Assembly: GCA_021773135.1 (NCBI GenBank)
Contig: JAJFKP010000006.1
Location: 62,001-126,000 of the forward strand
Direction of reading: 5' to 3'
DNA length: 64,000 nt
DNA from: Woeseiaceae bacterium
Lineage (GTDB): Bacteria; Pseudomonadota; Gammaproteobacteria; Steroidobacterales; Woeseiaceae
Numbering within the stretch: the first letter of the stretch is position 1; each line of letters starts with the position of its first letter. Shown here piece by piece: positions 32,939 through 59,545 of this stretch. A model generated the notes under the pieces. It ran no database searches. It was not told the DNA's origin and saw only the letters and a list, made by a program, of their open reading frames with translations. The position numbers and the translations under genes are program-made.

Positions 32939-34753
32939 CTAGATCGGCAACGTTTGCAGCCGGCGACCGCCGAACACAAGATTCACGATTGCCCGTGTGC
33001 CAACGATGGCCGTAAACATCGACGTCATGATGCCGAGCGACAGCGTTACGGCGAAGCCCTTAATCGGACCGGTGCCAAAAGCGAACAGAACGATGGCTGC
33101 AATCAATGTGGTGACGTTGGCATCTGCAATAGATGAGAAAGCTTTCTCGTATCCCGAATTGATGCTGTTTTGCACCGTTGCCCCGGAAGACAGCTCTTCT
33201 CGAATTCGTTCGAAAATGAGCACGTTGGCATCGACAGCCATGCCGACCGTCAACACGATTCCGGCAATTCCGGGCAATGTCAGCGATGCCTGCAACATCG
33301 ATAGCAACGCGACAATGAAAACAAGGTTCGAGAACAGGGCAACATTGGCGATCATGCCAAAGCCGCGATAGTAAAAGGCCATGAAGACGATAACTGCCAG
33401 GAAACCGATTTGCACAGCGCGAAAGCCGCGATCGATGTTGTCCTGACCCAGAGACGGACCAATCGTACGGTCCTCGATCTGGAATACAGGGGCAGCCAGT
33501 GCACCTGCCCTTAACAGCAGCGCGAGATCGCGGGCTTCCACCGGGTTCAGGCCCGTCGTTACAAAGCTGTCTTTAAATACACCATTAATGGTCGCGGTGT
33601 TAATTATTTCCTCGGTTTTCACCACTTTGTACGACGTACTGCCGTCAGGAAGCGTTATCGATTCGCGTTTGGTTTCGATAAAAACGGTCGACATCGGCTT
33701 GCGCAGGTTGGCCATGGTATTTGCCAGCATGCGCTCGCCGCCGACAGCATCGAGGGTTATGAAGACCGCCGGAGATCCTTCCGAGAATCCTGCAGACGCA
33801 TCAATGATCTGGTCGCCGGAGGCAATGACCTCGCGTTTCAGCAACTGACCCTGTACCCCTGGTTTGCCGGGATACCGGCGCGAACCCGGACTGTCACCGG
33901 TCGTGTCAACCATGCGGAATTCCAGCGTCGCTGTCGCCGTCAGAATGGACGCCAGCGCATTGGGGTCCTGTACACCGGGCAATTGCACGACAATACGATT
34001 AACACCCTGGCGCTGCACAAGCGGCTCGGCGACTCCGAGCTGATCAACTCGATTACGCAAAGTCGTCATGTTCTGCTCGATCGCGAAATCCTGGCGGGCT
34101 TTGATTTGCGTTTCACTCATGCGGACCCGCAACGACCTGCCGTCCGTACCGTCAAGAACAAGGAGCTCGGCGTCGGCTTCCGCGATGATATCCCGCGCTC
34201 GCTGCAGGTCTTCTGCACTGCGCAAACGAACAATTATCTGTGAACCATCGACCTCCACCCGCGGGCGAATGCCCGCGTCGCGGATCCGAGCGTCGAAATC
34301 CTGCTCGTACGCGTTCAGGCGAGCCGTTATGGCGCTGTCCATGTCCACTTCCAGCAATACGTAAACGCCGCCCCGCAGATCCAGGCCAAGGCTCATTGGC
34401 GCGAGGCCAAGGCTGCGCATCCAGTCCGGGAGTCTGGGCGCAAAGGTCAGTGCGACATTCGAATCGGAATCGAAGCGACTGCGAAATAGCGCGCCCGCCT
34501 CTTCCTGCGTGTCGGCCGAATCGAAGCGAACCACCAACCGGCCATCACTGAGATAAATGGCTTCCGATTCGATGCCGGCTTGTTGCAGAACCTGTGACAC
34601 CCGGTCAATGCGGCTTTCATCGAAAGGAGTCCCGTCCCGCTGCGCGAGTTGCACGGCCGGGCCGGTACCATAAATATTCGGCAACGCGATCAGAATGCCA
34701 GCCAGCAATACCAGCAATATCAGGGCGTTGAGCCAAGCCGGGTACTTATTCAT
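32939..34753 (-). CDS. secD: Protein translocase subunit SecD
   Basis: This is the large subunit of SecDF. The 604 residues have an N-terminal span (LNALILLVLLAGILIAL), the long periplasmic region with SLGLDLRGGVYVLLEVD, and a C-terminal block of five spans with the SecDF motif GMAVDANVLIFERIREEL. I start it at ATG 34753 (MNKYPAWLNALI) with AGGCGG about seven bases upstream; an in-frame ATG at 34774 lies inside the repeat array. The region from its start codon upstream is duplicated several times, and a mini-ORF stop (TAA at 34748-34746) lies within secD codons 2-3. Confidence 0.97.
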   Translation of the reverse strand: MNKYPAWLNALILLVLLAGILIALPNIYGTGPAVQLAQRDGTPFDESRIDRVSQVLQQAGIESEAIYLSDGRLVVRFDSADTQEEAGALFRSRFDSDSNVALTFAPRLPDWMRSLGLAPMSLGLDLRGGVYVLLEVDMDSAITARLNAYEQDFDARIRDAGIRPRVEVDGSQIIVRLRSAEDLQRARDIIAEADAELLVLDGTDGRSLRVRMSETQIKARQDFAIEQNMTTLRNRVDQLGVAEPLVQRQGVNRIVVQLPGVQDPNALASILTATATLEFRMVDTTGDSPGSRRYPGKPGVQGQLLKREVIASGDQIIDASAGFSEGSPAVFITLDAVGGERMLANTMANLRKPMSTVFIETKRESITLPDGSTSYKVVKTEEIINTATINGVFKDSFVTTGLNPVEARDLALLLRAGALAAPVFQIEDRTIGPSLGQDNIDRGFRAVQIGFLAVIVFMAFYYRGFGMIANVALFSNLVFIVALLSMLQASLTLPGIAGIVLTVGMAVDANVLIFERIREELSSGATVQNSINSGYEKAFSSIADANVTTLIAAIVLFAFGTGPIKGFAVTLSLGIMTSMFTAIVGTRAIVNLVFGGRRLQTLPI

Positions 34754-34805
34754 ATCCAACCGCCTGGAACCCATGCGAGAAAGACATCGTGGGATATTTA
34801 TTCAC
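34746..34805 (-). CDS. Leader mini-ORF 3 overlapping the secD start (19 codons)
   Basis: GTG 34805 begins MNKYPTMSFSHGFQAVGYE and ends at a TAA (34748-34746) located inside secD codons 2-3, eight bases overlapping the secD ATG. Ribosomes finishing this frame would be placed directly on the secD start, so it could couple or limit secD translation. CAGGCGG lies upstream. Translation is inferred only from layout. Confidence 0.4.
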   Translation of the reverse strand: MNKYPTMSFSHGFQAVGYE

Positions 34806-34857
34806 AAGTAACCGCCTGGATCCTTTGCTCGTCAAGCACAGTGGGATATTTATTCAT
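34798..34857 (-). CDS. Leader mini-ORF 2 upstream of secD (19 codons)
   Basis: ATG 34857 begins MNKYPTVLDEQRIQAVTCE and stops at a TAA that shares eight bases with the GTG start of mini-ORF 3. GGTGG (with CAGGC further upstream) lies just before the start. The first five residues equal those of SecD (MNKYP), so it derives from a duplicated secD start. Peptide function is unknown; it may act only through coupled translation. Confidence 0.4.
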   Translation of the reverse strand: MNKYPTVLDEQRIQAVTCE

Positions 34858-34963
34858 GTCCACCAGCCTGTAACCAATGCGCGTCAAGCACAGTGGGAAA
34901 ATTATTCATAGTCACCTGCCCCGCACTACAGAACGCCAAGCACAGCGGGATAATTTTGATCAT
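34850..34963 (-). CDS. Leader mini-ORF 1 upstream of secD (37 codons)
   Basis: It starts at ATG 34963, 17 bases after the yajC stop, with CAGGC upstream. The first half, MIKIIPLCLAFCSAGQVT, is hydrophobic with one Lys and looks like a short signal or membrane segment. It then reads in frame through the next repeat start (ATG 34909) to give MNNFPTVLDAHWLQAGGHE, and its TAA overlaps the start of mini-ORF 2 by eight bases. Translation is not proven. No homolog is known to me. Confidence 0.4.
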   Translation of the reverse strand: MIKIIPLCLAFCSAGQVTMNNFPTVLDAHWLQAGGHE

Positions 34964-34980
34964 TACGCAATTGCCTGGAA

Positions 34981-35304
34981 TTACGCGGCTTCAATGGTGC
35001 CTTTCGGCACGACGGCAGAAACGGTCGATTTCTGCACTTTGATTTCCACGTTTTCTGCGATCTGCAACGTAGCGTAATGGTCACTGACGCCGGTAACCTT
35101 ACCCAGCACGCCACCAGCGGTGAGCACTTCGTCGCCGGTAGACAGCGCACTGATCAGTGCAGTATGCGCCTTTTGGCGTTTCTGCTGCGGCCGGATCAGG
35201 AGGAAATAGAACGCGACGAAAATCACGATCATTGGCAGAAAAAAACCGAACGGGTCGGCTTGCGGAGCATCCTGCGCGTAGGCAGGACTTATGAAGAAAT
35301 CCAT
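34981..35304 (-). CDS. yajC: Preprotein translocase subunit YajC
   Basis: This is a small inner-membrane partner of SecDF. The 107 residues from ATG 35304 begin MDFFISPAYAQDAPQAD, followed by one membrane span (FFLPMIVIFVAFYFLLI) and the typical RPQQKRQKAH basic segment. The open frame extends 33 codons upstream but without conservation. It precedes the secD leader array. Confidence 0.94.
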   Translation of the reverse strand: MDFFISPAYAQDAPQADPFGFFLPMIVIFVAFYFLLIRPQQKRQKAHTALISALSTGDEVLTAGGVLGKVTGVSDHYATLQIAENVEIKVQKSTVSAVVPKGTIEAA

Positions 35305-59440: not shown

Positions 59441-59545
59441 ATTATTTCTGGCCAATTTTTCTTGGCCTATTTTTCTTGGCTTAATGTTCTTAGCTTATTC
59501 TTCGTGGCCTATGCTTGTTGGTTTAGTCTTCTTGGACTGTTCTTA
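59441..59545. repeat. 14-base degenerate tandem repeat, about seven copies
   Basis: On the plus strand a TGGCCTATTTTTCT-like unit recurs; the TGG (once TAG) core falls at 59449, 59463, 59477, 59491, 59505, 59519 and 59533, exactly 14 bases apart. Copies are imperfect. It lies upstream of the PLDc_N gene. A TTG-initiated 64-codon frame covers it but looks incidental. Confidence 0.85.

Follow-up and report, generated by a model that had tools for sequence, protein, structure and literature searches.

A tandem array of secD start-region copies in the yajC-secD gap of a Woeseiaceae bacterium, and its probable origin by duplication

In one uncultured marine bacterium of the Woeseiaceae, the ribosome site and first codons of secD recur as four diverged copies in the 227-nt minus-strand gap between yajC and secD. 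We consider it probable (roughly 0.62) that these are lineage-specific tandem duplications of the secD initiation region, neutral in origin, across which ribosomes still pass from yajC into secD. The copies and their reading frames are observed directly, as are the absence of the array from the genus siblings read and the presence of other start-region arrays in the same genome, and the secD array appears to be one outcome of a more general tendency of this genome to duplicate gene junctions. A regulatory role for the array is possible.

Layout of the array and frame logic of the start motif

The window, the whole 64,000-nt stretch of DNA that was analysed, has the following features at this junction.

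34981..35304, minus strand: yajC (107 aa), the upstream gene, from the sequence and a Pfam YajC match (E 2.4e-29); stop TAA at 34983-34981
34754..34980, minus strand: gap with the four start-region copies, from the sequence and repeat finding
34850..34963, minus strand: unit 0 frame, ATG 34963, 37 codons; TAA inside ATGAATAA of unit 2
34850..34909, minus strand: unit 1 frame, ATG 34909, 19 codons; strongest Shine-Dalgarno-like pairing (-12.7 kcal/mol)
34798..34857, minus strand: unit 2 frame, ATG 34857, 19 codons; TAA inside GTGAATAA of unit 3
34746..34805, minus strand: unit 3 frame, GTG 34805, 19 codons; TAA in secD codons 2-3
32939..34753, minus strand: secD (604 aa), ATG 34753, with Pfam SecD domains; start conserved in the family

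The copied stretch begins at the ribosome site of secD and reaches about codon 10 of the gene. An original prediction, made from the sequence, had placed starts at 34963, 34909, 34857 and 34805 ahead of secD at 34753, and all of them were found on the minus strand. Its proposal that the gap contains four diverged copies made from the secD start also stands, and well above chance: the copies match the secD ribosome site and first codons, Tandem Repeats Finder (TRF) reports a 52-nt array at 34757-34908 with a score of 155, and the self-similarity of the secD start region (24.0) is reached by none of 200 shuffles, so that the head-to-tail copies expected of a tandem repeat are present. Units 1-3 and secD agree with one another at 29-39 of 52 gapless positions, and unit 0 is the most diverged copy, with 17-22 of 52 matches to the others. 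The predicted 52-nt spacing is exact for the three steps from 34909 through 34857 and 34805 to 34753, the first step being 54 nt. Similarly, frames of 19 codons that end in the TAA of the next unit with an 8-nt overlap begin at 34909, 34857 and 34805, the final TAA falling in secD codons 2-3 (34748-34746) as anticipated, but the frame from 34963 had been given as 19 codons as well and actually has 37, running in frame through ATG 34909; unit 0 reads ATGATCAAA and is thereby left with no internal TAA. The net layout is one 37-codon frame enclosing a 19-codon one, followed by two further 19-codon frames. The ATG of unit 0 lies 17 nt past the yajC stop and has weak Shine-Dalgarno-like pairing (-2.5 kcal/mol). 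Compensating indels, by which unit 3 would have kept its 52 nt, were considered and set aside as dependent on the alignment. Inside unit 3, upstream of the conserved secD start and in frame with it, an ATG at 34774 (minus strand) would prepend seven residues, MGSRRLD.

The frames owe their regularity to the start motif. NTGAATAA carries a stop in each of the two other frames, and a unit of any length will therefore either close at the next start or fuse with it in frame: a copy length of 3n gives in-frame fusion (as for 54), 3n+1 closes at the TAA (52) and 3n+2 closes at the TGA, a class exemplified by the 47-nt leaders of six genomes from another genus described below. Units 1-3 each close at the TAA of the next NTGAATAA with an overlap of 8 nt. 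The relay geometry thus follows from the motif, given no earlier stop in between, and the frame logic that the original prediction derived from the 52-nt unit describes three of the units correctly while being automatic for this motif. Part of the motif is universal among the relatives: all 95 family secD starts read NTGA, with a stop in one other frame, and 19 of the 95 have a stop at bases 6-8. In the window, ATGAATAA adds the stop in the remaining frame, and both other frames close within 8 nt.

The secD gap in relatives and start-region arrays elsewhere in the genome

The family set comprised 107 Woeseiaceae genomes with one assembly per species. SecD was found at E 1e-100 in 99 of them, and the region before secD was read in 95 loci from 94 genomes, with yajC present in 94 of the 95; the remaining 13 genomes had no match at the cut-off (8), no secD start on the contig (3) or were not fetched (2, G033 and G039). 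The yajC-secD gap in the family (n=94) has a median of 18.5 nt, with 79 gaps of at most 30 nt, 12 of at least 50 nt and two above 200 nt. Nine of the eleven genus siblings were read, the other two having no SecD match at E 1e-60, and the array is absent from all nine, whose gaps measure 13-26 nt; the comparison with related genomes suggested by the original prediction thus returned one of the two outcomes that it had named as together refuting it, the other being secD expression unaffected by removal of the starts. The start of unit 0, 17 nt past the yajC stop, coincides with the position of the siblings' secD start, so that the copies were added downstream of it, in this lineage. In genome G020, whose gap is the second above 200 nt in the family, the ribosome site and ATGAAT have been copied separately: the copy, of 31 nt, lies 99 nt before secD, and none of 200 shuffles scored as high. 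In about 45 further gammaproteobacterial loci (L087-L131), whose gaps were inspected by eye only, no such array was noticed. The 240-nt array matches its own genome once (E <= 0.001) and a 25-base piece of it has no exact match in viral contigs; on these two results a mobile repeat was set aside as unlikely.

Short reading frames before secD also occur elsewhere in the family. In six genomes of another Woeseiaceae genus (L022, L035, L134, L139, L143 and L177), secD is preceded by a 16-codon frame with a TGA that overlaps the secD GTG or TTG. They fall in one group of eight on a quick tree, which needs two changes; the two group members lacking the leader have a 3-nt gap and a -4 overlap with yajC. 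Over codons 3-16, differences among the leaders are spread about evenly over the codon positions (97, 117 and 94), so that the peptide bears no sign of selection, and its length is preserved. Two of the leaders begin MNTFP and MNIFP, and their being copies of the secD start was considered and rejected, at least 11 of 200 shuffles equalling the self-similarity in each of the six. In a further genome (L168), a GTG frame of 19 codons ends 8 nt into secD. Frames of at least 8 codons ending within -15 to +12 of the secD start are found at 10 of the 12 loci with gaps of at least 50 nt, a raw count that was set aside. The recurrence in the family of mini-ORFs ending close to the secD start was counted against a neutral origin of the array by duplication.

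To place the array in its genome, 1,503,214 of 4,548,231 bases (33%, window included) were read with mechanical gene calls, and 1,251 ORF starts of 1,349 ORFs were scanned mechanically. Matches occurred at nine starts. On reading, those of secD, petC and hemW are copies of the true start, that of trpE (L293) is ambiguous, and the other five are repeats in spacers or ORFs overlying other arrays; TRF added an array at tuf. In the 33% of the genome that was read, start-region arrays besides that of secD therefore precede petC (48 nt), hemW (49 nt) and tuf (132 nt).

L208:12945-13064, minus strand: petC start array at the petB-petC junction of the same genome; 48-nt period, all in frame
L292:5574-5702, plus strand: hemW start array, before hemW; 49-nt units
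L301:16187-16496: tuf start array, 132-nt period; three copies including the gene, units opening MSKEKFERRRCSDFL
L325:866-1130, in sibling G006: tuf start array of the same 132-nt layout; tuf gene behind a tRNA-like stretch

At petC, the cytochrome c1 gene, the ribosome site and ATG are present twice at a distance of 48 nt, the two copies matching at 33 of 42 positions. A third ATG follows after another 48 nt and opens a signal-peptide-like start; it resembles the two copies more weakly, at 23-25 of 42 positions (0 of 1000 shuffles at that offset). The first ATG of the array overlaps the petB stop by 8 nt, and a petC-frame start at -8 is found in 24 of the 29 loci with both genes among the best 30 family loci; the start copy itself occurs in only two of these 30, in the window genome and in sibling G001 (L265, a 48-nt copy). 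The hemW units encode LPPLSLYIHLRAG and MVPPLSLYVHLLPG ahead of HemW MLPPLSLYIHLPW, and among 12 genus loci only the window genome stands out (0 of 200 shuffles; 10 or more for the others). Over 10 codons the hemW copies differ mostly synonymously, with 5 synonymous and 2 nonsynonymous differences between copies A and B and 2 and 0 between A and the real start. The tuf arrays of the window genome and G006 lie at different tuf loci and share 71% identity across 261 nt; their mini-ORFs of 30 and 24 codons open MSKEKFERRR in both species. Matches of that length were found in 2 of the 107 family genomes, and shorter matches to the tuf start itself in 2 more genomes with one query and 7 more with the other. 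The mini-frames of hemW and tuf end before the next start, with no overlap. From the usual gene order, we take the neighbours to be fusA for tuf and rdgB for hemW. Some start arrays may be kept, given the mostly synonymous differences at hemW and a tuf array common to two species.

In all, about ten junction arrays (TRF period of at least 30, score of at least 100) lie, by reading, at junctions or beside tRNA genes; four of them are inside or over mechanical ORFs or tRNA ends, and the remaining TRF rows are in ORFs. One (L193:6050-6252) repeats the last codons and stop of a gene about four times in 49-nt units, so that this type of duplication also affects the end of a gene. Four arrays whose periods range over 68-173 nt lie beside tRNA Lys/His, Ser, Gln and Leu (L179:9652-10054, L191:1947-2334, L299:15561-15766 and L305:11563-11965, respectively), that at L191 overlapping the tRNA-Ser gene by 18 nt. 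Before trpE, L293:18279-18382 is an imperfect 52-nt repeat with an ATG and short inverted repeats (GTGCAGGGACGCAC) in each copy; it directly follows a terminator-like hairpin and may or may not be a start-region copy. Positions 59445-59544 of the window contain repeated 14-nt units similar to TTTCTTGGCCTATT, the plus strand being T-rich. As controls, a one-contig family genome (G017, which we take to be probably Woeseia oceani) gave no match among 343 starts in 400 kb, its three arrays all lying inside ORFs, and G001 gave one match, petC, among 271 starts in a 318-kb stretch chosen for holding petC, with two of its three arrays outside ORFs. Array density was tried as a mark of this genome and rejected: about ten in 1.50 Mb compares with 0 in 0.40 Mb of G017 (Poisson 0.07), but G001 is similar, with two outside ORFs in 0.32 Mb. 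Junction arrays are thus not peculiar to the window species.

Probable origin of the array, proposed hand-over into secD and rival readings

Neutral duplication, which the original prediction had kept as a fallback, is now the best-supported origin, given the absence in siblings, the parallel arrays and the automatic frame geometry. Replication slippage or unequal recombination would have made the copies, with no regulatory purpose, inserting them between the ancestral start position and today's secD start. Such duplications would be tolerated because each unit brings its own start and NTGAATAA closes any incoming frame at the next one. A ribosome finishing yajC would start at 34963, 17 nt on, and termination-reinitiation would then pass it along at 34857, 34805 and 34753 into secD, fresh initiation at any unit being an alternative entry; secD would in this way stay translated despite 210 extra bases. 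In one study, stop/start distances of -8 to +10 nt are taken as predictive of termination-reinitiation, the commonest overlaps being -4, -1 and, in third place, -8 nt, with -8 less efficient than the shorter two, and in E. coli and Haloferax reinitiation is nearly lost at about 20 nt (PMC10666635). Others are described as reporting coupling across longer distances (PMC10666635 and PMC12548453). The distance is -8 nt at 34857, 34805 and 34753, inside this range, so the later hand-overs have good geometry, and the frame-to-frame passage envisaged by the original prediction is geometrically sound. The yajC stop is +17 nt from 34963, outside the range; with reinitiation falling off by about 20 nt, passage at this first step may be inefficient, and ribosomes starting afresh at unit 1, with its better pairing, may contribute more.

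A selected translational leader, with secD output either set against that of yajC by serial termination-reinitiation or tuned by units serving as decoy initiation sites, seems unlikely to us, yet several results lean its way. In a simulation of random substitution at the observed divergence, ignoring indels and relatedness, all three starts, stops and open frames survived in 6.9% of trials when the consensus was taken as ancestor and in 2.5-5.1% when a single copy was; retention of the open chain at p 0.025-0.069 leans mildly against pure neutrality and is suggestive only. Pairing with a generic anti-Shine-Dalgarno sequence, which may not be the host's, is -12.7, -9.0 and -7.7 for units 1-3 and -7.0 for secD itself, against a family secD median of -3.3 (n=94); unit 0, unlike units 1-3, is not above most family secD starts. 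The stronger pairing of units 1-3 would be expected if they are used, though chance sites reach similar values, random 22-mers of the window attaining -7.0 in 11% and -9.0 in 3% of cases. In the six other-genus genomes, the bases of the 16-codon frame have diverged but its length and the TGA-over-NTG overlap with secD are preserved. A short ORF with a stop/start overlap can also regulate, as reported for iraD (PMC5574718). Against a selected leader stand the nine siblings that lack the array, a geometry that NTGAATAA produces automatically, other start arrays of different unit lengths (48, 49 and 132 nt) whose frames at hemW and tuf do not overlap, and the lack of any peptide or RNA-structure signal. 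Between the window mini-ORF peptides there is no synonymous bias over codons 2-10 (synonymous/nonsynonymous differences U1-U2 0/3, U1-U3 1/6, U2-U3 1/4), in agreement with the earlier remark that peptide selection between copies is not evident. The array has no fold signal (z-score -0.07) and no Rfam match, on which an RNA element was rejected; no sigma-70-type promoter match was found, and a promoter was dropped as a candidate; terminator-like sites are absent from the array, the four found (1.2 expected) all lying in yajC or upstream. These results also bear on the suggestion that the start codons are incidental and the copies serve as a promoter array or as protein-binding sites in DNA or RNA. 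The block common to the copies does exceed the start codon alone, but with no promoter, fold or Rfam family to point to, and with that block corresponding to the secD ribosome site and first codons, we find this reading quite improbable.

That the mini-ORFs are arrest peptides sensing Sec activity, in the manner of SecM, VemP or ApdA/ApdP, is favoured by their position upstream of secD only, and we give it hardly any credence. According to two papers, searches for arrest peptides required 80-200 residues with an N-terminal signal or transmembrane (TM) segment (PMC7897499) and a spacer of over 30 residues (PMC10987492). The frames here have 19 and 37 codons, no signal or TM segment on reading and no synonymous bias in codons 2-10; 19 codons are too short for the spacer, and the 37-codon frame has neither room for both elements nor a Pfam match. 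No conserved C-terminus is seen either, as the nine siblings read have no homologue and the copies end GGHE, VTCE and VGYE. A Sec-monitoring arrest peptide was accordingly rejected on length and lack of conservation, and the SecM- or VemP-like translated leader raised by the original prediction, with 19 or 37 codons set against 80-200 residues and an N-terminal signal or TM segment, does not fit. An assembly artefact might be suspected in a 64-contig genome, but units 1-3 and secD differ from one another at 13-23 of 52 gapless sites and are not one unit read twice, which makes this explanation extremely improbable.

Under the favoured reading, neutral duplication of the secD initiation region, the array illustrates a simple route by which an operon junction can grow without losing coupling: with the start codon inside NTGAATAA, a tandem copy is either joined in frame to the next start or passes the ribosome on to it. 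It also means that chains of mini-ORFs can arise by accident and should not be called regulators without tests. A bolder proposal, which we regard with considerable doubt, is that the genus keeps home-made leaders, tandem copies of a gene's own start at junctions (secD, petC, hemW and tuf) that undergo concerted evolution and set downstream translation; the best sign that such arrays persist comes from tuf, where two species share the 132-nt layout of three copies at different tuf loci, with mini-ORFs opening MSKEKFERRR in both. For future work, the distance over which ribosomes can be relayed could be measured on the start arrays of this one genome, a ready-made series with units of 48, 49, 52 and 132 nt that includes in-frame, overlapping and separated cases.

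Comparison with known systems

Intergenic tandem repeats (VNTRs) are head-to-tail copies of about 50 nt and lineage-specific, as is the secD array. In the secD array, by contrast, each unit holds a translation start, and the copy number alters the set of reading frames. Among the open-licence PMC titles and abstract openings listed, none described tandem start-region copies before secD, or such arrays as a class. SecM, MifM, VemP, ApdA and ApdP resemble the array in being upstream ORFs before a Sec or YidC gene, but they are far longer, and the secD units lack both their export signal or TM segment and their conserved C-terminus. The ORF before iraD (PMC5574718) and engineered bicistronic leaders share with it a short frame with a stop that overlaps the start of the gene proper; in those cases one leader matters, whereas the secD array consists of serial copies of the gene's own start. 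Closest in operation are the MIRUs (mycobacterial interspersed repetitive units), described in PMC12548453 as short repeats at start codons with their own ORF coupled to the local gene and little effect on expression; mini-ORFs with ribosome delivery as their sole role have been proposed, and the same paper gives MIRUs as a natural case. MIRUs differ in being apparently mobile and coupled at -4 nt (PMC12548453), whereas the secD array is found once in its genome, the 240-nt sequence matching one locus at E <= 0.001, derives from the start of secD itself and has overlaps of 8 nt. The array would thus be best described as a tandem repeat at an operon junction in which the start of the gene itself forms the unit. 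In operation it resembles a MIRU or a coupled short leader, yet, being neither interspersed nor at -4, it is not a MIRU.
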